Below are positions 9,804 to 19,838 of a stretch of DNA of 36,523 nucleotides, piece by piece; position 1 is the first letter of the stretch; each line of letters starts with the position of its first letter. The stretch is from the NCBI RefSeq assembly GCF_900101165.1, contig NZ_FNFK01000018.1, positions 1-36,523 of the forward strand, given 5' to 3'. The DNA is from Alkalibacterium thalassium. Lineage in GTDB: Bacteria > Bacillota > Bacilli > Lactobacillales > Carnobacteriaceae_A. The notes under the pieces are model-generated. The model worked only from the letters and a program-made list of their open reading frames with translations, made no database searches and was not told the origin of the DNA. Both the position numbers and the translations under genes were made by a program.

Positions 9804-10543
9804 TCACTGACGACTCCGAATAAAGTCATCAAGCCGCTCGGTCACTTCCTCATGCTGCTCTTCACGGCTTATCAGACTCTTCCCGTCCCCATTCTGAAAT
9901 CCGTAATAACCAAAATTAGAATGATCGCGGCCTTCAATCTGATAAAGCTCGGTTGCCAGAGGCAGATTGGAGGAAGCCGATTCATATGATTCTCTGTTTA
10001 TTATTTCATCTTGTGTGCCAGTAATCGAAAGTATAGGTAATTCCAGACCCGACAAATCGCTGCCATCATTTGGATAAGAGGCGAGAAAAAACAGTCCGTT
10101 AATTTTATCATGCTCGTCTGATGCATAAATTGAGGCGCTGGTCCCTCCAAGTGAATGTCCCCCCACCCACCACTCTTCCTGGTCATCATACATCTCCATT
10201 ATTTCGTCAGTTTTATCAGACCTTAAAATAGCAAGATTAAATGGCATGTATGGAATAAAAACCCTATATCCTTTTTCACTAAGCTGGTCAGCCAGTGGCA
10301 GATAGGCTTCTGGCTCAACAAGGCCCCCCTGGTAAAAGACGATATTTCCTCGATTACTATCAGAACCGACTTTGATCCAGTCTTCTTAATGGTCACGTGT
10401 GACTCATCAAGTAATGTCACGGCTTCGGGCATAGCCTGATATGTTCTAATTCGGATAAAAACGAGACCTGCTGCTATGGCTAATACTATACCGGCGATAA
10501 GCCACAAGAGGACTGATATCCATTTCTTTCGTTGTCTCTTCAT
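9804..10543 (-). pseudogene. Alpha/beta hydrolase gene split by a single-base frameshift
   Basis: Two overlapping minus-strand frames together make one alpha/beta hydrolase of about 246 residues. The first part (from the ATG at 10543, MKRQRKKWIS, GGA-containing ribosome site upstream) has an N-terminal transmembrane helix and reads to about 10385; the protein then continues in another frame as WIKVGSDSNRGNIVFYQGG, a typical beta-strand/oxyanion region. The second part carries the nucleophile elbow GGHSLGG, an acidic GTQDE and the catalytic His in GRDHSNFG. The span of 740 nt is one base short of 247 codons, which points to one lost base near AAGAAGACTGG. Without correction the product stops early, so it is probably a pseudogene or a sequencing error. 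Confidence 0.8.
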
Positions 10544-10584
10544 TCGTTCATTTCCTTTATACATATAGTTTATCTTTTTATAAA

Positions 10585-11802
10585 TCAAGAGGTAAAGCGT
10601 CTCGGAGATAGTGCAGTACGCCCATGAATTTTCAAATTGTTCCATAAAGGTTTCCATCCATTTTCACAATACAGCGGATCCTGCCCATCAGCCAGACGTC
10701 TGATCTGCTGTTCGTAGTAACTGATTCCCATGAGTCCACCGATCTTTCTGTCCAGAAAGGGCAGTCCTGTAGTCAGACGAGGAATCTGTATGTCTTTTAT
10801 TTCCTTATTCAGTAATTTTTTCGGAAGATCCGGATAAAGCACCATTGGCCTAGCTAGACCGACCATTTTTGTATGATCACATGCTAGAGCTTTCTCCATA
10901 CTTTCTGTGGAGCGAAAGCCCCCTGTGATCACTAGAACCGCATTTATCTCCTCCTGAATTTGCTTTGCGTCATCGATGAAAAAAACATCTTTTTCACTCG
11001 GGTCAAACATTCTAGGATTTTCATAATTCCCTCCAGAAAGTTCAATCAGATCGATCCCGTTCTTATCCAATGTTTTGATTACTTTAAGAGCCTCGTCAGT
11101 ACTGAATCCCCCTTCACTAAAGTCAGAAATATTCAGTTTAACACTGACTGGAAATTCCGGACCGACCTTCTCACGTATCCGAAAATAAATATCAATCAAA
11201 AACCGCATGCGATTCTCTAATGTCCCCCCGTAAACATCCTGCCTCCGATTGGTAAGAGGAGATAGAAATTGACTGATGAGATACCCATGAGCAGCATGAA
11301 TTTGAACACCTGTAAAGCCAGCCTTTCTGGCAATTTCAGCTGCTCGACCAAACTTATCAGTAATAGCAGTAATCTCTTCTATACTTAAAGCTCTGGGTGT
11401 ACTGAAGAATGGACGGTACTGTTTTTTTAAGGCAACCTCACTTGGAGCCACCGGTGTATCCGATAATGAACGGGGAGATTGTCTCCCTGGATGATTCAGC
11501 TGCATCCACAGGTGCGTCTGCTGTTCAGTACCTGCTTCGGCCCATTGTATCAACTCAGCAAGATGCCTTTCATCTTCAACTACAACATTCCCCGGTTCTC
11601 CCAGAGCTCGACTATCGATCATTACATTGCCAGTGACGACGATTCCGGCCCCGCCTCTCGCCCATCGTCTATATAAACGGAAAAGACGCTCGTCAGGCTG
11701 ATGGTCAGGTCCAGCCAGTGTTTCGCTCATAGCAGATTTAAATAATCTATTCTTAACTGTAACACCATTCGGTATGGTAAAGGATTGACTTAATATCATC
11801 AT
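10585..11802 (-). CDS. NADH:flavin oxidoreductase, Old Yellow Enzyme family
   Basis: A flavin-dependent oxidoreductase of about 405 residues with a single FMN TIM barrel. Family marks are the N-terminal IPNGVTVKNRLFKSAM, the GGAGIVVTGNVMID strand, QLNHPGRQSP, and the substrate/FMN stretch IHAAHGYLISQFLSPLTNRR, followed by YGGTLENRMRF and VSVKLN. It lacks the C-terminal Fe-S and FAD/NAD domains of 2,4-dienoyl-CoA reductases. The substrate is unknown; the family reduces activated alkenes and nitro compounds. ATG 11802, with a weak GGA 6 nt upstream, was chosen; ATGs at 11808 and 11820 are in frame. The stop lies about 40 nt upstream of the hydrolase start, so the two may be co-transcribed. Confidence 0.88.
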   Translation of the reverse strand: MMILSQSFTIPNGVTVKNRLFKSAMSETLAGPDHQPDERLFRLYRRWARGGAGIVVTGNVMIDSRALGEPGNVVVEDERHLAELIQWAEAGTEQQTHLWMQLNHPGRQSPRSLSDTPVAPSEVALKKQYRPFFSTPRALSIEEITAITDKFGRAAEIARKAGFTGVQIHAAHGYLISQFLSPLTNRRQDVYGGTLENRMRFLIDIYFRIREKVGPEFPVSVKLNISDFSEGGFSTDEALKVIKTLDKNGIDLIELSGGNYENPRMFDPSEKDVFFIDDAKQIQEEINAVLVITGGFRSTESMEKALACDHTKMVGLARPMVLYPDLPKKLLNKEIKDIQIPRLTTGLPFLDRKIGGLMGISYYEQQIRRLADGQDPLYCENGWKPLWNNLKIHGRTALSPRRFTS

Positions 11803-11840
11803 CTTCATTCCAGTTCTCATATTTTTTGGAGCTGTGAGTT

Positions 11841-11881
11841 GTGTTTCAGTGTTTCAGTGTTTCAGCGTTTCAGCGTTTCAG
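11841..11881. repeat. Five tandem copies of an 8-bp unit
   Basis: The unit G(T/C)GTTTCA is repeated five times without interruption (three with T, then two with C). The array covers the stop codon of the minus-strand gene at 11870-12964 and ends about 20-40 nt upstream of the oxidoreductase start. The 8-bp period is not a multiple of three, so copy number changes would shift frame or promoter/ribosome-site spacing. Confidence 0.9.
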
Positions 11882-12964
11882 CCTTTTCCAACTTGAACGT
11901 ATATGAAAATTCATAGGCGAACGTTCATCTATGAAGGCTTTCCACTCATATGACATCGGCCATTCCCGGTAGACAGGTGCACGCCTGTATAAAAAACGTA
12001 AAGACCATTTTTCAGGTATGGGAGACCACCCTTCTGTAGGGCAGCATTTGATTTTTGTACTGTTTACTCTCTTGATGACCCGATACCTTCCAATCAGCAG
12101 GCCCAGTGAAGGATGACAACTGATCTGAAATATCCCCTCTCTCACCTTATTGTGCTCCATGGTCAGTATATCAGGAAAAGGAGGAACAAAAGACAGTTCG
12201 ATTGGATAAATATGATTTGAGAATCTAAGGGTACGAATAGCTGGACTTGATCCCTGCCAGTCTATATCCAGAGTACAGTCTTTGGTTCTTACCGTTTCCT
12301 GTCCATCTGTTAATGACATAACTGCCATATGATTATCTGAAGATGGATTGAATTTTACTATCAGTGGTTTTGTGCTGTAACGGCTGAAGTACATCCGCAT
12401 CCCATCCATTGTTACCGGTAAATTATCTAATTTATGAGACTGGTCTCCAATGTGAACGTCAACGACTGTATGATTTTTTCTAACAAAATAAAAGTCGAAC
12501 AGGTAAACAAGTGGAAGATAGGACGGGGTCTGGGAGGCTGCTCCCACTGGTGCAAGCAGATTAAATGGCGAGCGTTTTTTGAAGTTTTTTTCGTGTATCT
12601 TTAGTTTGATTTTCCTGCCATATTTATCGGTAAAGCGGTATAAAGCTTGTACTCCTTTCTGACTGATATCAAAAGAAGCCACTTCAAAAGCACATTCTAT
12701 TTTTTCATTGAGCCCTTTGCCGAAGGTGTCATAGGTTTTATTCTGAATTTTCAGTGAAGGCTGATAGTAGACATCGATCTTCCCATCCGTCCTCCAGCCC
12801 AATATAACATGCCCGGTGCCATAGGTACTATCATCATAGTATTGAGGTTCAAACCCGATATAAAAAACATCCGGATCTTTTTCAAAGTTGATCTGAAGCA
12901 GTCTTTCCATCGGCTCAAGACTGAACCTGAATGGATTGATGAGTTTGACTGACTCCTCTTTCAT
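11870..12964 (-). CDS. Conserved-looking hypothetical protein, about 364 residues
   Basis: I do not recognise the family. The product is soluble, with no signal peptide or transmembrane helix, rich in aromatic and beta-strand-like residues, and has a basic C-terminus (RSSWKRLKR). Features that may help matching are PQYYDDSTYGTGHVILGW (about 41-58), DVHIGDQSHKLDNLP, DIDWQGSSPAIRTLRF, and a late ISCHPSLGLLIGRYRVIKRV. The alternating strands suggest a beta-sandwich or lipocalin-like fold, which is inference. The stop codon lies inside an 8-bp tandem repeat, so the C-terminus may be recently altered. It precedes the Old Yellow Enzyme gene on the same strand with a gap of about 65 nt. No Shine-Dalgarno-like site is clear upstream of the ATG. 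Confidence 0.7.
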   Translation of the reverse strand: MKEESVKLINPFRFSLEPMERLLQINFEKDPDVFYIGFEPQYYDDSTYGTGHVILGWRTDGKIDVYYQPSLKIQNKTYDTFGKGLNEKIECAFEVASFDISQKGVQALYRFTDKYGRKIKLKIHEKNFKKRSPFNLLAPVGAASQTPSYLPLVYLFDFYFVRKNHTVVDVHIGDQSHKLDNLPVTMDGMRMYFSRYSTKPLIVKFNPSSDNHMAVMSLTDGQETVRTKDCTLDIDWQGSSPAIRTLRFSNHIYPIELSFVPPFPDILTMEHNKVREGIFQISCHPSLGLLIGRYRVIKRVNSTKIKCCPTEGWSPIPEKWSLRFLYRRAPVYREWPMSYEWKAFIDERSPMNFHIRSSWKRLKR

Positions 12965-13307
12965 ACTCTCACATCCTTTGTTTTAGCGGTACTTGCAGAT
13001 GAGTTATTGGGTAAACGATCAGATTTGTTTTGATGATGACTGTAAATGATGGCAATCCGTCAAAAAGTTTGGTCACATGCAAGTATGTCATTCTCTTGTC
13101 TTACTATATATTACAATTGTTTTTTATTCCTACTTCTATTATACATTGGAAGAATAAAAACCGTAATCATTATGCATATTTTTCGAGATATATTTGTACC
13201 GTCAGTACGATCTATTCTCAGGCCCCTGTGATTATTATCTTTAATTGAATTAGTTAACTTAGACCTAAAAAAATCTGCCCTGAATCGGCAGATTTTCAGC
13301 AATCTAT
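12965..13307. other. Gene-poor gap upstream of the hypothetical gene
   Basis: Apart from the ywbE terminator near its right end, I see no gene here. Short frames on both strands lack ribosome sites and have AT-biased composition. It presumably carries the promoter of the minus-strand hypothetical gene, but no convincing -35/-10 pair was found. Confidence 0.5.
13270..13296 (-). terminator. Terminator of ywbE
   Basis: AAAATCTGCC (13270-13279) and GGCAGATTTT (13287-13296) form a 10-bp perfect stem with a 7-nt loop. On the minus strand it is followed by a run of T, 11 nt past the ywbE stop. Confidence 0.9.
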
Positions 13308-13502
13308 TTATTTTACGACTTCCTTCACACGTCCAACCACTTTATCTTCCAGCATCACTTTGATTCCGTGGGGATGGGCAGGCGACTTGGTCAGTAATTT
13401 CAGGACCACTCCTTCTGTTAACTTTCCTGATTTCTGATCCTGTTTCTGCACGACTTTGACTCTATCTCCTGGTTTTATATTGCTGCGTTTTGTACCGTCC
13501 AT
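13308..13502 (-). CDS. ywbE: YwbE family protein
   Basis: A 64-residue protein matching the YwbE family (DUF2196) of Bacilli along its whole length: KRSNIKPGDRVKVVQKQDQ, SGKLTEGVV, LLTKSPAHPHGIKV, LEDKVVGRVKEV. The fold is probably a small SH3-like/KOW-like beta barrel, and the function is unknown. The gene is monocistronic: a terminator follows at once, and the heliorhodopsin gene is divergent. A TATACT -10-like box on the minus strand (13589-13594) may be its promoter, though the -35 is weak. Confidence 0.92.
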   Translation of the reverse strand: MDGTKRSNIKPGDRVKVVQKQDQKSGKLTEGVVLKLLTKSPAHPHGIKVMLEDKVVGRVKEVVK

Positions 13503-13790
13503 ATTATAATTCCTCGCTTTCTTTTATTTTCCTGAATTACCTGATCACATTAATCCGAAATCCGACCAAATACTATCATCTCTCTTAAAGTATACAGACT
13601 TTTGACATCAATTGACATGCTCTGAAATAGAATCTTCACAAATAAATCAAATTATTAGAGGGGTAAACCTTAAATTAATAACACGCGTTATGATAAAATA
13701 ATCCAAAGGAGATCAATGTCCTATACCCTTTCAGGAAGGAGTGACCCTTCAATTCCGCTTCGACAATCCGTGGAAAGGCAGGTATCCGTT

Positions 13791-14543
13791 ATGTCAAAAC
13801 AAATTACATTCAGCTCTTTGAGACGGTTCAACTTGATTATGGGCTTTCTTCACCTTATTCAAGGCCTTCTCATGCTCGGATTTGCAATATTTATAGATCG
13901 TATTGCAGAGTTCAGAGTCCCTGTGATGTCCTATTTTCTCTCATTCGATACCACTCAGATGCGACTAGTTACAGAACCATCTCAGTTAGGTGAACTTCCA
14001 TTTGGTATAGCTGTTTCATTATTCCTCTTTCTATCAGCTCTAGCACATTTCATCATTGTCAGTTCCTGGGGTAACAAAATCTATAATCGCGACCTCGAAA
14101 AAGGGATGAACCGTTTCAGATGGTATGAATACGCCTTGAGTTCTTCTCTAATGATTGTGCTGATTGCTATGCTCTTTGGTGTTTATGATATAGGTGCAAT
14201 CATTCTTATTGCTGTTGTGAATGCATCAATGAACTTTTTCGGACTGGATATGGAAGAAATAAACTACTACACAAAAAAACTGAACTGGAAGCCTTTTGTA
14301 TTTGGTACCATAGCTGGTCTGGCTCCATGGGTAGTCATTCTTCTATATGCTTTTGGTAATTCTAATCCAGCAGATGTTCCGTGGTTTGCCTATGCAATTG
14401 TAGGGAGTTATTTTGTATTTTTCAATCTGTTCCCTATCAATATGATACTGCAGTATAAGAAAATCGGACCATGGGAAAACTATCTATATGGCGAAAGAGG
14501 ATATATCATCTTAAGTCTCGTCGCCAAGTCGGTCCTTGCCTAG
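13791..14543 (+). CDS. Heliorhodopsin with transmembrane helix 7 cut by an amber codon
   Basis: A retinal-binding membrane protein of the heliorhodopsin family. From the ATG at 13791 (MSKQITFSSLRRFNLIM) it has 250 residues and seven hydrophobic segments. Family residues are present: H21 in GFLHLIQG, H86 in SALAHFII, the counterion E113 in RWYEYALSSSLMI, and the retinal Schiff-base lysine K246 in LSLVAKSVLA (compare H23, H80, E107 and K241 in the founding protein 48C12). The frame stops at TAG (14541-14543) just after AKSVLA, where relatives have AKSxLAW; nine further in-frame codons (LTFAGVMQP) reach TAA at 14573 and look like the normal tail. A longer start at ATG 13716, with AAAGGAG 4 nt upstream, would add 25 residues not typical of the family. 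No retinal synthesis gene is in the window. Confidence 0.9.
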   Translation: MSKQITFSSLRRFNLIMGFLHLIQGLLMLGFAIFIDRIAEFRVPVMSYFLSFDTTQMRLVTEPSQLGELPFGIAVSLFLFLSALAHFIIVSSWGNKIYNRDLEKGMNRFRWYEYALSSSLMIVLIAMLFGVYDIGAIILIAVVNASMNFFGLDMEEINYYTKKLNWKPFVFGTIAGLAPWVVILLYAFGNSNPADVPWFAYAIVGSYFVFFNLFPINMILQYKKIGPWENYLYGERGYIILSLVAKSVLA

Positions 14544-14573
14544 CTTACTTTTGCGGGAGTCATGCAGCCATAA
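14544..14573 (+). other. In-frame remainder of the heliorhodopsin beyond the TAG
   Basis: Nine sense codons (LTFAGVMQP) and a TAA continue the heliorhodopsin frame after the amber codon. Together with one residue at the TAG they would complete helix 7 and match the usual C-terminus (LAW then FAG-like). A single G-to-A change (TGG to TAG) explains the interruption. The base after TAG is C, a context in which read-through tends to be more frequent. Confidence 0.75.
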
Positions 14574-14598
14574 ATCCGACTTCACCTATTACACCTGT

Positions 14599-14654
14599 AA
14601 AGCCCCGTGAGACTTGCAGCCACTTCAGCTGTTAATCTCAATGAGGGCTTTTTA
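14599..14654. terminator. Bidirectional terminator between heliorhodopsin and thpR
   Basis: Outer arms AAAGCCC (14599-14605) and GGGCTTT (14645-14651) with an inner TGAGA/TCTCA pair form a long hairpin ending in a T-run on the plus strand. It serves the heliorhodopsin transcript and overlaps the stop of the convergent thpR gene. Confidence 0.7.
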
Positions 14655-15212
14655 GTCTGTTATATTTGTACGAACAGGTTTGACGTATACCGGTCTATAT
14701 ATAAGCTCGCCATTCAGTCGAATGCTTTCCATTAAAGAAATTTTTTCGACCTTAATTTCTACAGGTGAGACAGACTGACTTCGACTCCATTCCTCAAAGT
14801 CCTGACTGAAAACGATTTGTCTCCCTAGAGTAATATGCGACGTATACTTTCCATTTTCAGCAGAATGCTCTTCTTCATTCAATTCAGCGCTGATCTGTCT
14901 GTTGACCTCTTTCAGCTCATTTATGTCACCATCAACCCCAGCCCATATGATAAGCTTGTTGCGCTTATTGAAAGATCCCAGTTTACTAAGTCTAAGCTTA
15001 AAAGGCATGCTATGCTCGGCACATTTATCGATCGCTTTCTTAATTTCCACGATTCTTTCGCTGTCAGCTTCTCCAATAAAGTAAAGAGTCAGATGGAAAT
15101 TGGATGCTGAAGTGAACCGCCCCTTTTCGGCCGTCGCTTTAACTTTTGACTGAATCCCGGTCAGCTTTTCTTTGACCTCTTCTTCCAGCTCGATAGCAAT
15201 GAATACTCTCAT
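14652..15212 (-). CDS. thpR: RNA 2',3'-cyclic phosphodiesterase (2H/LigT family)
   Basis: A 186-residue 2H phosphoesterase with both HxTx catalytic motifs: H40-L-T-L in the N-terminal lobe and H126-I-T-L in the C-terminal lobe, and the family start MRVFIAIEL. It should hydrolyse 2',3'-cyclic phosphate RNA ends to 2'-phosphates, probably in the cytoplasm in RNA turnover. The ribosome site is unusual: five near-perfect GGA repeats (15213-15234) end directly before the ATG, giving several overlapping registers for ribosome binding. It is monocistronic and convergent with the heliorhodopsin gene. Confidence 0.92.
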   Translation of the reverse strand: MRVFIAIELEEEVKEKLTGIQSKVKATAEKGRFTSASNFHLTLYFIGEADSERIVEIKKAIDKCAEHSMPFKLRLSKLGSFNKRNKLIIWAGVDGDINELKEVNRQISAELNEEEHSAENGKYTSHITLGRQIVFSQDFEEWSRSQSVSPVEIKVEKISLMESIRLNGELIYRPVYVKPVRTNITD

Positions 15213-15324
15213 CTCCTGCTCCTCCTCCTCCTCTCGTATGCTCCATTATTGATTACCAATGCTTCAATTTATTCAGGTTGTCATTTCCTATACCTTAACT
15301 GAAAAATTATTTTATCTCTAAATA

Positions 15325-15352
15325 AAAAAGGACACTTCACCGAGAAGTGTCC
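15325..15352 (-). terminator. Terminator of the YjiH-family gene
   Basis: GGACACTTC (15330-15338) and GAAGTGTCC (15344-15352) form a 9-bp perfect stem with a 5-nt loop, followed on the minus strand by a T-run (15325-15329). It lies 20 nt past the stop. Confidence 0.92.
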
Positions 15353-15372
15353 CTTTTTCATCTGATAAGTTT

Positions 15373-16728
15373 TTAAAATGATATGACTCCCATCCAGCCA
15401 AGAATATTTGTAAGAATAAGCAGGACGGGTATGGACAGGACTGTTCTGAATAAGAAGACTTTGACTACATCCCAGAAGTTCAAGCCAATTTTAGTTTTAA
15501 CTAGAATCATGCCCGTTTCTGACATGAACACGAGCTGTGTAAAGGCCAGCACTCCGATGAAAAAGCGAGCGGCTTCAGATTCTGCTCCACTGATGAACAA
15601 TGCTGGAAGATACATATCTGCAAAACCTGCCAGTGAAGCGGGTGCCATTTGAGCAGCTACTTCTCTGCTGTACCCAAGGAAATCATAAACAGGGACAAGT
15701 GGTGCGCTGATGAAATCGAAGAAGGGTGTATATTCTGCAATGACAAGCGAAATTGTTCCTACTGCCATGATGATTGGGAGGAAGCCCACATAGATATCCA
15801 CAATATTTTTAAGAGCCTCTAAAAATGCTCCTATAATGGATGTCTGTTCAGCCTGTTCGATTGCTGCCTCATATGAATGCTCCATGATTGTCTTGTCTTC
15901 AGGAACTTCAACTGATTTAGGCTCTATGCCTTTGTAGTATTCCGGCTCGAATTTCTTAAGCGGCAGTCGGGCAGTAATGAAAGCAAGGATCAGAGTTACA
16001 ATGGCGATCGATCCATAAAATATAGGAAAAATTGCACTGAAGCCAAGAAGATCCGCAACAGCCGCCGCAAAAGCGATACCGACTATGGAGAAGCTTGTCG
16101 CAATAATGTAGGCCTCTCTTTTGTTATAGTATCCCCTCTGATACTGTTTATCTGTTACGACAATACCTATCGTCCCATCACCAACAAATGAAGCAATTGC
16201 ATCGATCAGTGAATATCCAGGTACTCTGAACAGTTTTTCAACTACGGGACCTAGAAGTATGCCGACAAACTCTACGATTCCAAAATGAGTGAGTAACGGC
16301 AGTGCTAGAATACCAACAAAAAACGTGATATATAATGTCGTCAAGAGGCCATCTTCCCCTGCCATCAGCCCTCCAGTATCTGGATCCAGAATCATATCTG
16401 CAAGTGCGTTCCCTTCAAACCAGTTATAAACGACCATTAAGTATAAAAAGGATCCGATCAGTCTCAATGCCACATTGATCGGCGTAGTTTTAAAAATACC
16501 ATTCAAAAAGCCGCTATCCGATGTATAGAACAGAAAGACAACTGTGGCGATCAGAACAATCCATGCCGACAGTGCTGTAAATGTTATGAATAAATCCAGT
16601 ATATTATCCGTAACCAGATAAATAATGTGAGAAATCATAATACGGCTTTCTCCACCGATAGTAAATGGGACTAGGAAAAAGACGAATCCCAGTAAAGATA
16701 AAAATATGAACTTAAATTTATTAATCAT
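15373..16728 (-). CDS. YjiH family membrane protein (nucleoside-recognition/Gate domain)
   Basis: A polytopic membrane protein of about 451 residues with nine to eleven hydrophobic segments and the Gate/nucleoside-recognition-type pattern of the YjiH family, including FVGDGTIGIVVTDKQYQRGYYNKREAYIIATSFSIVG. The transported solute is unknown; related Gate-domain proteins include spore maturation SpmA/SpmB and nucleoside carriers. The ATG at 16743 gives five extra residues, but GGAGGG sits 8 nt before the ATG at 16728 (MINKFKF), which is preferred. It stands alone between two terminators. Confidence 0.85.
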   Translation of the reverse strand: MINKFKFIFLSLLGFVFFLVPFTIGGESRIMISHIIYLVTDNILDLFITFTALSAWIVLIATVVFLFYTSDSGFLNGIFKTTPINVALRLIGSFLYLMVVYNWFEGNALADMILDPDTGGLMAGEDGLLTTLYITFFVGILALPLLTHFGIVEFVGILLGPVVEKLFRVPGYSLIDAIASFVGDGTIGIVVTDKQYQRGYYNKREAYIIATSFSIVGIAFAAAVADLLGFSAIFPIFYGSIAIVTLILAFITARLPLKKFEPEYYKGIEPKSVEVPEDKTIMEHSYEAAIEQAEQTSIIGAFLEALKNIVDIYVGFLPIIMAVGTISLVIAEYTPFFDFISAPLVPVYDFLGYSREVAAQMAPASLAGFADMYLPALFISGAESEAARFFIGVLAFTQLVFMSETGMILVKTKIGLNFWDVVKVFLFRTVLSIPVLLILTNILGWMGVISF

Positions 16729-17446: not shown

Positions 17447-18334
17447 TTAACTGGTCTCTTCATGCCAGACTTTTTCCAATAGAGCGGAGTCGATTTTCTT
17501 CATTTTCAAAAAGGCCTCAGTGACACGCTGGATCTGCCCTTTTGTCCCAGTCGATAAAAGATCATCCATATTGTCGGGGAGGACTTGCCAGGAGACACCG
17601 AACCGGTCCTTAAGCCAGCCACATTCCTCCGCCTGAGGATGAGCCGATAAGTTATTCCAGTAGTAATCAATCTCCTTCTGATCTTTACATAAAATCATAA
17701 ACGACAAGGCTTCATTGAAAGTGAATTCTTCTTCCATTGGATCATCCATCGCATTGAAGCTCTGGTTGTTCAGGCGAAATCCAGAAAACATCAGCTTCGC
17801 TTTCTTATTGTCAGCTTCTCCTTCTTTATAGTAGAGCATATCTTCTATTTCAGAATCCGGAAAGATTGACGTATAATACATCACTGCCTCTTCACCTTTT
17901 CCGGACTGGCGATGAGCAAAGAGAAGGTGAGGAACGATTTTCTCCTTAAACGGTTCTTCTGCAAATGCAATCTGCCACGTCAGACCAAAACGATCCTTAA
18001 GCCACCCATAATATTTATTGAATGGATACGTATCAAGAGGCATCAATACCTCCCCTTCAGATATCAGTGCGTTCCAGAGAAGATTAACTTCTTCCTCATC
18101 CCGGCAAAGAATCATAAGGGACACTGCAGGAGTAAAGGTGAATAACGGTCCATCACTAATTGCTGCAAAAGTCTGCCCGGCAAGATCAAAAGTAAATGAC
18201 TCTACGCTTCCAGAGGGAGTTCCTTCCAGTACATACCTGTTGACTACTTTCGAGTTACTGATCAGACTTGTATAGAAATCGACAGCTTCTCCGGCATTGT
18301 CATCAAACCAGAGATGTGGAACAATCGTTACCAC
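17447..18334 (-). CDS. VOC family protein with two tandem PhnB-like domains
   Basis: A protein of about 295 residues made of two repeats of the PhnB/3-dmu-9_3-mt type of VOC domain: residues about 1-130 (IVPHLWFDDNAGEAVDFYTS to YGWLKDRFGLTWQIA) and 135-295 (IVPHLLFAHRQSGKGEEAVMYYTS to CGWLKDRFGVSWQVLPD). The motif WLKDRFGxxWQ near each domain end is typical. Despite the old demethylubiquinone methyltransferase label, such proteins lack a methyltransferase fold, and the substrate is unknown. The first GTG (18343) directly abuts the GGAG site, so the second GTG at 18334, about 7 nt after it, is the better start. Confidence 0.88.
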   Translation of the reverse strand: MVTIVPHLWFDDNAGEAVDFYTSLISNSKVVNRYVLEGTPSGSVESFTFDLAGQTFAAISDGPLFTFTPAVSLMILCRDEEEVNLLWNALISEGEVLMPLDTYPFNKYYGWLKDRFGLTWQIAFAEEPFKEKIVPHLLFAHRQSGKGEEAVMYYTSIFPDSEIEDMLYYKEGEADNKKAKLMFSGFRLNNQSFNAMDDPMEEEFTFNEALSFMILCKDQKEIDYYWNNLSAHPQAEECGWLKDRFGVSWQVLPDNMDDLLSTGTKGQIQRVTEAFLKMKKIDSALLEKVWHEETS

Positions 18335-18522
18335 TCGAACCACTCCTTTTCCTTAAAGAAATCAGCCATTTAACACCATGAAATATCTATTTTTCGTATA
18401 CCAGTATACCATATACAGTCTTAATCCTTGCTCTGAACGCTCTCTGACCATTGATAGACCTGGCTTGAGTTGAGAAGTATATCCCCTGCCATTCAATTTC
18501 ATATATGGTTTTAAAAGAAAGC

Positions 18523-18561
18523 AAAAAAAAAGACAAGGTCAGGACTCATCGTCCTGCCTTG
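18523..18561 (-). terminator. Terminator of the cold shock gene
   Basis: CAAGG-T-CAGGAC (18534-18545) pairs with GTCCTGCCTTG (18551-18561), with one bulged base and a 5-nt loop. A run of nine T follows on the minus strand. It lies about 25 nt past the stop. Confidence 0.88.
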
Positions 18562-18584
18562 CCTTCATCTATTGGTTTAGGTTA

Positions 18585-18785
18585 TTAAGCCTTAGTAACG
18601 TTTGCTGCTTGAAGTCCGCGGTTGCCTTCTTCAATGTCAAAGTTTACTGCTTGGCCTTCATCTAAAGATTTGAATCCTTCTTCTTGGATAGCTGAGAAGT
18701 GTACGAATACATCGTCTGCTCCGTCACGTTCGATAAATCCAAACCCTTTTTCTGCGTTAAACCATTTTACTGTACCTGTTTCCAT
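18585..18785 (-). CDS. Cold shock protein, CspA/CspB family
   Basis: A 66-residue single-OB-fold RNA chaperone. RNP1 is KGFGFIE (13-19) and RNP2 is DVFVHF (about 25-30), with the usual [10 protein letters not shown] start. It binds single-stranded RNA and melts secondary structure in the cytoplasm. A strong GAGGAGGAA ribosome site (18793-18801) lies 7 nt before the ATG. A likely promoter gives a 5' leader of about 105 nt, as is common for cold-shock genes, which would allow temperature-dependent RNA folding. Confidence 0.95.
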
Positions 18786-18889
18786 AATAAAATTCCTCCT
18801 CGTGCCTTTAGCACTTTATATTTACATGATTGCTTAAGGACCAATTCGGAATGCATTACACAGTTCGTAAAATGTCTCTTACAATATGT

Positions 18890-18925
18890 TATACATAGTA
18901 TAGCACATGAATGAAATAAAACCAA
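18890..18925 (-). promoter_or_regulatory. Likely cold shock gene promoter, extended -10
   Basis: On the minus strand, TATACT (18897-18902) is preceded by TGC, an extended -10, and lies 17 nt after TTGGTT (18920-18925). It would start transcription near 18890 and leave a leader of about 105 nt before the cold shock start codon. Confidence 0.6.
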
Positions 18926-18986
18926 ATCTTTTTTAAAAAGACTTATTTTAGACTTAATTAAAAAATATTACGCAAAATAAAAACTA

Positions 18987-19838
18987 TTATCTTTCCTGAA
19001 AATCTTCTGGTGTGCTTAATTCATCGAAAGTCAATCCATCAAAATAAGTCATTTCTTCGTCAGTCAGTTCAAAATCAAAGATATCAGCATTAGATTTAAT
19101 CCGTTCTGCATGTACAGATTTAGTCAAGGTAACAAAGCCATGCTGGACACTCCATCTCAATAAAAGCTGAGCAATGGATTTGCCGTACTTGTCAGTCATT
19201 TCTTGAACAGTAGTATCTTCGCCTAAATATTTCATAGGAGAAAGGGGTGACCATCCTTCGATGACAATGTCGTTTTCACGGTTCAACTCAACGGTTTCTT
19301 TCTGAAGAACGCCTGGGTGCAGACGAATCTGATTGACCATCGGCTTGATTCGGGAATTTTCCAGAATATTGTTTAAATGAGGGACAGCAAAATTACTGAC
19401 ACCGATCGCTTTAAGTTTCCCTTCATCATACAAGTCTTCCAGCGCACGCCATGTGTCAATATTATCCTGTTTCCAGTCTCCACCGTTATTTTTTACAACC
19501 GGCCAGTGAATAAGAAAGAGGTCCAGGTAGTCAAGATCAAGTTTTTCCAGTGATTCTTCTATTGTCTTACGGGCACTGTCGTAGCCGTGATTCATATTGT
19601 TGAGTTTGCTGGTAACAAACATCTCTTCACGCGGGATGCCGCATTCCTTGATTCCTTTACCGACATATTCCTCATTCTGGTACATCTGAGCTGTATCGAT
19701 ATGACGATAGCCTACTTTAACTGCGTTCTTTACTCCATCGACAGCTTCCTGAGGATCGGTCACTTGCCATGTCCCATATCCTAGAATGGGGATCTTCACA
19801 CCATTTGATAAGGTGTATGTATCGCTTAAACTTGTCAT
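18987..19838 (-). CDS. Aldo/keto reductase
   Basis: A 283-residue NADPH-dependent carbonyl reductase of the AKR5-like (2,5-diketo-D-gluconate reductase-like) group. The catalytic tetrad is D48, Y53, K78 and H111, in GYRHIDTAQMY, VTSKL and DLFLIHWP. Cofactor-binding stretches near the C-terminus include SVHAERIKSNADIFDFELT. A GGGAGGAAAAAG ribosome site precedes the ATG. It is monocistronic; the physiological substrate cannot be told from sequence. Confidence 0.93.
   Translation of the reverse strand: MTSLSDTYTLSNGVKIPILGYGTWQVTDPQEAVDGVKNAVKVGYRHIDTAQMYQNEEYVGKGIKECGIPREEMFVTSKLNNMNHGYDSARKTIEESLEKLDLDYLDLFLIHWPVVKNNGGDWKQDNIDTWRALEDLYDEGKLKAIGVSNFAVPHLNNILENSRIKPMVNQIRLHPGVLQKETVELNRENDIVIEGWSPLSPMKYLGEDTTVQEMTDKYGKSIAQLLLRWSVQHGFVTLTKSVHAERIKSNADIFDFELTDEEMTYFDGLTFDELSTPEDFQER

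Follow-up and report, generated by a model that had tools for sequence, protein, structure and literature searches.

A premature stop codon in the heliorhodopsin gene of Alkalibacterium thalassium, probably a recent nonsense mutation

The heliorhodopsin gene of Alkalibacterium thalassium carries an in-frame TAG in place of a conserved tryptophan codon. We consider it probable that this is a recent nonsense mutation and that it has produced an incipient pseudogene, to be counted among several apparent losses of this gene in the same bacterial family. The gene lies on the forward strand at positions 13791-14573 of the window, the 36,523-nucleotide stretch of A. thalassium DNA that was analyzed here. 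As we picture the sequence of events, purifying selection would have kept the gene intact until, not long ago, a nonsense mutation arose at a conserved Trp five residues past the retinal lysine. Translation would then end at residue 250, which would leave helix 7 to finish in mid-membrane, roughly a turn beyond that lysine. The outer third of the helix would be lost together with W251, at which a proposed light-signal chain has its outer end; the product would misfold or be degraded. The argument for loss of function comes entirely from the structure and the stop codon, and no missense decay has accumulated.

The assignment of the gene to the heliorhodopsins is clear. The predicted protein matches Pfam family PF18761 at 2.6e-97 (325.3 bits, cut-off 26.7), with profile positions 1-234 of 242 covered. 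It also matches six distinct PDB sequences, all named heliorhodopsin, at 8.1e-51 to 2.5e-44. An earlier reading made from the sequence alone (hereafter the sequence-only reading) had described a heliorhodopsin with H21, H86, E113 and K246 in place, a TAG directly after AKSVLA and a C following the TAG, and in each of these respects it agrees with our results. The frame of 250 codons plus the premature TAG occupies 13791-14543 on the forward strand, with the TAG itself, codon 251, at 14541-14543. The leftover 3' end (14544-14573, forward strand) comprises nine codons, translated as LTFAGVMQP, and a TAA at 14571-14573, as that reading also stated, and one silent base in it differs from Alkalibacterium pelagium. 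Family sequence is read in the same frame before and after the TAG, so that chance does not account for the arrangement. Across the 40 rows of an alignment, H86, E113 and K246 do not vary, while H21 is present in at least 90%. Two hallmarks of PF18761, the retinal lysine in helix 7 (K246) and the glutamate counterion in helix 3 (E113), are thus found in the window protein, as judged by these 40 rows and by alignment with the heliorhodopsin 48C12; a third, the complete helix 7 with Trp five residues past the lysine, is absent, since the TAG stands at that codon. Judged by its sequence, the gene is a heliorhodopsin by descent, whose product as read would not be complete. Its frame is broken relative to intact orthologues, as is expected of a pseudogene; the relaxed selection that can follow such a break is not seen, with 0 missense changes among the 12 other changes, and it would be expected only of a break dating from before about the last 17-31% of the branch. 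A family search of the A. thalassium genome (2.36 Mb, 124 contigs, 99% complete) identified no second heliorhodopsin copy.

The protein may begin further upstream than proposed. An in-frame extension at 13716-13790 on the forward strand, part of an ORF at 13716-14543, has its own ATG, with AAAGGAG before it at 13705-13711, and is a possible true start; the N terminus may thus be 25 residues longer, from the ATG at 13716, 75 bases upstream of the proposed start. No conserved N-terminal extension was found in an alignment of ten upstream regions. Purine-rich runs upstream were also seen by eye in other Alkalibacterium, some of them before short reading frames. A scan of the locus for promoters and terminators returned nothing above chance.

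The codon at which the frame is broken was compared across the family by using the best 80 of 147 relatives in other genomes, a set that includes no viral collection. Two of these loci, L019 and L021, were omitted, their matches ending before the C terminus, leaving 78 readable loci. The equivalent of codon 251 is TGG in all 78, including Lokiarchaeota and Chloroflexota records at 56-57% identity, which bears out the earlier statement that relatives read Trp at this position. The sequence-only reading had also proposed looking for a clade in which the truncated end is normal. No such clade was found, and a short end as a clade norm is ruled out, as none of the 78 readable loci ends there. The closest among the listed relatives, the heliorhodopsin of A. 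pelagium DSM 19183 (L002), has the same 250 residues and the same nine codons past the stop, but it is intact, with TGG (Trp) at codon 251 where A. thalassium has TAG. The single-base change from TGG that had been suggested is therefore what separates the two species at this codon. The heliorhodopsin of Trichococcus flocculiformis (TfHeR) belongs to the same family, and the window gene shares 60% identity with a T. flocculiformis locus (L040). In the available part of PMC9769723, TfHeR is reported to bind a class 2 photolyase, whose activity is raised about 3-fold. TfHeR, as described there, is intact and forms an operon with the photolyase, whereas genes for LigT, an FMN oxidoreductase and a nucleoside-recognition protein lie near that of A. 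thalassium.

The likely consequences for the protein were examined by comparison with 48C12 (PDB 6SU3, 6SU4, 6UH3), which belongs to the same family as the window protein (E about 1e-50). With the numbering in the accessible portion of PMC9726877 and our alignment, His23, Gln26, His80, Glu107 and Lys241 of 48C12 correspond to H21, Q24, H86, E113 and K246 of the window protein. W251, the first of the ten lost residues, pairs with residue 246 of 48C12 in the PDB alignment. As far as the same portion of PMC9726877 describes it, Trp246 forms the extracellular end of a hydrogen-bond chain, His80-His23-Gln26-Trp246, that leads from the Schiff base region, and in simulation Trp246 swings outward upon protonation of His80 or His23. 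48C12 possesses both Trp246 and a complete helix 7, whereas the window protein stops just before that residue. According to the available part of PMC9385722, the C terminus of heliorhodopsins is outside, and therefore the end of the truncated chain would lie within the membrane, roughly one turn past the lysine. In AlphaFold models, helix 7 spans residues 231-258 in the A. pelagium protein and residues 231-249 in the window protein. Mean pLDDT is 90.8 for the truncated and 89.8 for the intact protein, values that neither support nor exclude misfolding; models of the AlphaFold type do not report stability. From these comparisons we infer that the truncated product would be poorly folded or signal-dead. 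It is very unlikely, in our judgment, that the shortened protein works, its helix 7 stopping past the Schiff base and its role being diminished or changed, perhaps to one insensitive to light. The gene does keep everything up to four residues past K246 with 0 missense changes, and the predicted fold is retained in the model at the mean pLDDT given above. Against such a working short protein stand the TGG found at every readable locus, none of which ends there, the mid-membrane end that the chain would have, and the role of Trp246 as proposed output residue in the part of PMC9726877 cited above.

The age of the stop can be gauged from the comparison with A. pelagium. The two genes differ at 13 of 783 bases, 12 of these differences being silent and the 13th being the TAG, and among the options offered by the sequence-only reading, a recent inactivation is accordingly the best supported. 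Without selection, about 69% of random changes are expected to be missense (transitions weighted fourfold), and the probability of 0 missense changes in 12 is then 2.6e-7. The stop appears to be recent because an unselected gene would have picked up missense changes. Assuming 4 to 6 silent changes on the A. thalassium branch, approximately 10 to 17 missense changes would be expected had the gene been unselected throughout, and, as a rough bound under the same assumption, the loss would fall within about the last 17-31% of the branch. The silent changes were not polarised, because outgroups vary at those sites, and a stretch of nine codons past the stop is too short to reveal relaxed selection. 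In the low-divergence tracts of the window (see below), other genes have 31 silent and 24 missense codons, compared to 12 and 0 for heliorhodopsin (p 0.003). Four genes chosen outside the tracts have 203 silent and 56 missense codons, from which the 12 and 0 of heliorhodopsin are not clearly different (p 0.14). By these substitution counts, purifying selection on the gene was ordinary to strong until recently, and not demonstrably stronger.

Over 31,095 aligned bases the window and A. pelagium diverge by about 8%, with mismatches and gaps counted, but this divergence is uneven. A low-divergence tract at 10392-15900 shows mostly 0-8 differences per 200-base bin, compared to 17-50 in the flanking bins; the exceptions within it are the bins at 11700 and 13100, with 24 and 13 differences, respectively. 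A second low-divergence tract is located near 17500-19500. We read these tracts as signs of probable recent recombination between A. thalassium and A. pelagium, in either direction. An alpha/beta hydrolase gene (9804-10657, reverse strand; PF12695 on the downstream piece) is split by a 1-base deletion at 10387/10388, a few bases at most from the left-hand boundary of the first tract.

Interrupted genes were surveyed in parts of both genomes, 854,867 bases from A. thalassium and 1,081,304 bases from A. pelagium. A strict filter disregarded stops within the first 25 residues or the first tenth of a frame and dropped counterparts covered to less than 85%; with it, 9 of 200 A. pelagium frames that have a counterpart were interrupted in A. 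thalassium, and 0 of 198 in the reverse comparison (p 0.004). A looser first pass over less sequence flagged 11 of 150 in A. thalassium and 6 of 147 in A. pelagium (p 0.32), with two of those flagged on each side being paralogue artefacts. Several of the 9 interruptions lie near C-terminal ends, and these may be harmless. Five are clearly interior breaks (asymmetry p 0.06), found in the heliorhodopsin gene, the hydrolase gene, a dehydrogenase-like gene, a channel gene and a further gene that is more diverged and has two stops. The dehydrogenase-like gene, presumably of the short-chain type, contains a 35-base tandem duplication. The channel gene (L236 6146-4560, reverse strand, G000:C74), which we take to be a ClC-type chloride channel, has a TAG at codon 152 of 529, followed by CT, and is 97% identical to its A. 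pelagium counterpart, with 97 silent and 14 non-silent codons between them. Within the window, a frame at 29853-30254 matches only residues 101-224 of a 224-residue A. pelagium counterpart, the first part being absent, and it fell below the coverage limit of the survey.

An excess of interrupted genes can mean genome decay or sequence errors, although the tandem duplication and the substitution-type stops argue against base-calling errors alone. The main rival to a recent nonsense mutation, which we nevertheless consider unlikely, is that the heliorhodopsin TAG is an artefact of sequencing, assembly or the culture strain and that the natural population is intact. Such an origin would fit a gene that is otherwise pristine, the excess of interrupted genes under the strict filter, and a genome that is a draft in 124 contigs. 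However, that excess is filter-dependent, amounting to 11 against 6 (p 0.32) in the looser pass and reaching only p 0.06 for the five interior breaks; the heliorhodopsin change is a substitution rather than an indel; the 35-base duplication in another broken gene is no base-calling error; there is no missense difference over 250 codons; and the same gene is broken in other genomes too (see below).

The sequence-only reading had listed suppression or read-through of the TAG among its options. Some full-length protein would then be made in this strain, but the evidence runs against it, and we regard it as highly improbable. A C after a stop codon favors read-through, and the channel gene provides a second well-kept gene with an in-frame TAG. 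In both genes the TAG is followed by CT, a likeness that was noticed post hoc; 3 of the 34 TAGs tallied as terminators have CT as well. Conversely, TAG ends 34 of the 180 genes compared, 22 of which have TAG in A. pelagium as well; two of the 34 face TGG and CAG in A. pelagium, as the TAGs of heliorhodopsin and the channel gene do. No CTA anticodon was present among the 31 tRNA genes found, an incomplete set in which both tRNA-Trp genes are CCA and the three tRNA-Gln genes are TTG. The signs of a genome with reassigned or suppressed TAG, namely rarity of TAG as a terminator and a cognate tRNA, were thus not observed in these genes. RNA editing at the stop was considered and set aside, the context being a poor fit to a TadA-type motif. 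That this heliorhodopsin, with its retinal lysine and its end right before the Trp246 equivalent, is a naturally signal-dead retinal protein, or one completed only via read-through of the TAG, we regard as decidedly unlikely.

A recent nonsense mutation, the reading that we favor, would not be the only loss of this gene. In a sample of 395 genomes of the order, heliorhodopsin matches exceed the cut-off in 33, of which 30 show no stop and 3 have one: A. thalassium, Alkalibacterium putridalgicola (G002) and G024. Among 398 genomes drawn from the phylum, 10 were over the cut-off, with a stop only in A. thalassium. In A. putridalgicola (L010 3001-3780) an in-frame TGA occupies codon 180, at a Trp that is invariant in the 40-row alignment. 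As in A. thalassium, the gene is broken by a stop in a Trp codon, but at another site and with its C terminus intact. It differs from the Alkalibacterium subtropicum gene by 64 silent and 11 non-silent codons, the stop included, which points to little decay in this gene too. Genome G024, 71% complete and from another genus of the family, retains a 33-codon 3' remnant with a TGA and a TAG (L132 6907-7005, reverse strand) beside an unrelated frame. The TAG of this remnant is at the same codon as that of A. thalassium, which we read as a probable coincidence, given that the relic is decayed and contains two stops. Besides L010, only L075 has a stop among the best 80 of 147 relatives. L075 (533-1306) is an Acholeplasmatales metagenome record with TAA at codon 102 and a frame that is otherwise open.

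Two congeners, G001 and G009, gave no heliorhodopsin match in the family search of their genomes. Each of them does match the downstream nucleoside-recognition gene, at 69-71% identity, and this gene lies downstream of heliorhodopsin in G002, G003 and G015. The presence of the nucleoside-recognition gene in G001 and G009 without heliorhodopsin suggests loss rather than late gain.

In A. pelagium, codon 251 falls within a CCTGG site, and a TAG occupies this codon in the G024 remnant as well. A CCWGG methylation hotspot was considered as the cause of the mutation and rejected, since C to T changes showed no clear excess in CCWGG over controls. From A. pelagium to A. thalassium, the inner C of CCWGG changed to T at 22 of 456 sites (4.8%), compared to 2.7% for NCWGG with other first bases, 4.1% for CCWGH, 4.9% for CCSGG and 5.4% for all C. 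For changes from A. thalassium to A. pelagium the value was 3.6% for CCWGG and 2.4, 3.0, 3.7 and 5.3% for the same controls in that order. Matches over the cut-off to the C5-methyltransferase family occur in 5 of 12 genus genomes, including A. thalassium and A. putridalgicola and excluding A. pelagium.

The supply of retinal and the presence of a photolyase were surveyed in the same 12 genus genomes. A phytoene/squalene synthase family gene was identified in 11 of them. No match to Blh-type carotene cleavage enzymes exceeded the cut-off in any of the 12, with weak matches below it in 8, A. thalassium included; retinal may therefore come from elsewhere or from an unrecognised enzyme. The photolyase family is represented in 11 of the 12, and the exception, G009, is without heliorhodopsin. 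A link between the break in heliorhodopsin and a loss of photolyase was rejected, the photolyase family being present in A. thalassium, and so was a link to retinal synthesis.

In the literature searched, no paper pairs heliorhodopsin with Alkalibacterium, an Alkalibacterium genome with rhodopsin, or heliorhodopsin with nonsense mutation. PMC8612252 makes no mention of truncation, pseudogenes, a stop codon or gene loss, and the available part of PMC7807009 contains nothing on truncated heliorhodopsin forms. As a broken allele of a known family, the A. thalassium gene is ordinary. Its value is that of a natural experiment, in which two closely related genes encode the same protein and one of them is cut just before the Trp proposed as a light-driven switch. 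That the gene is broken or missing in several related bacteria suggests that this group can do without it, a point of relevance to the question of heliorhodopsin function.
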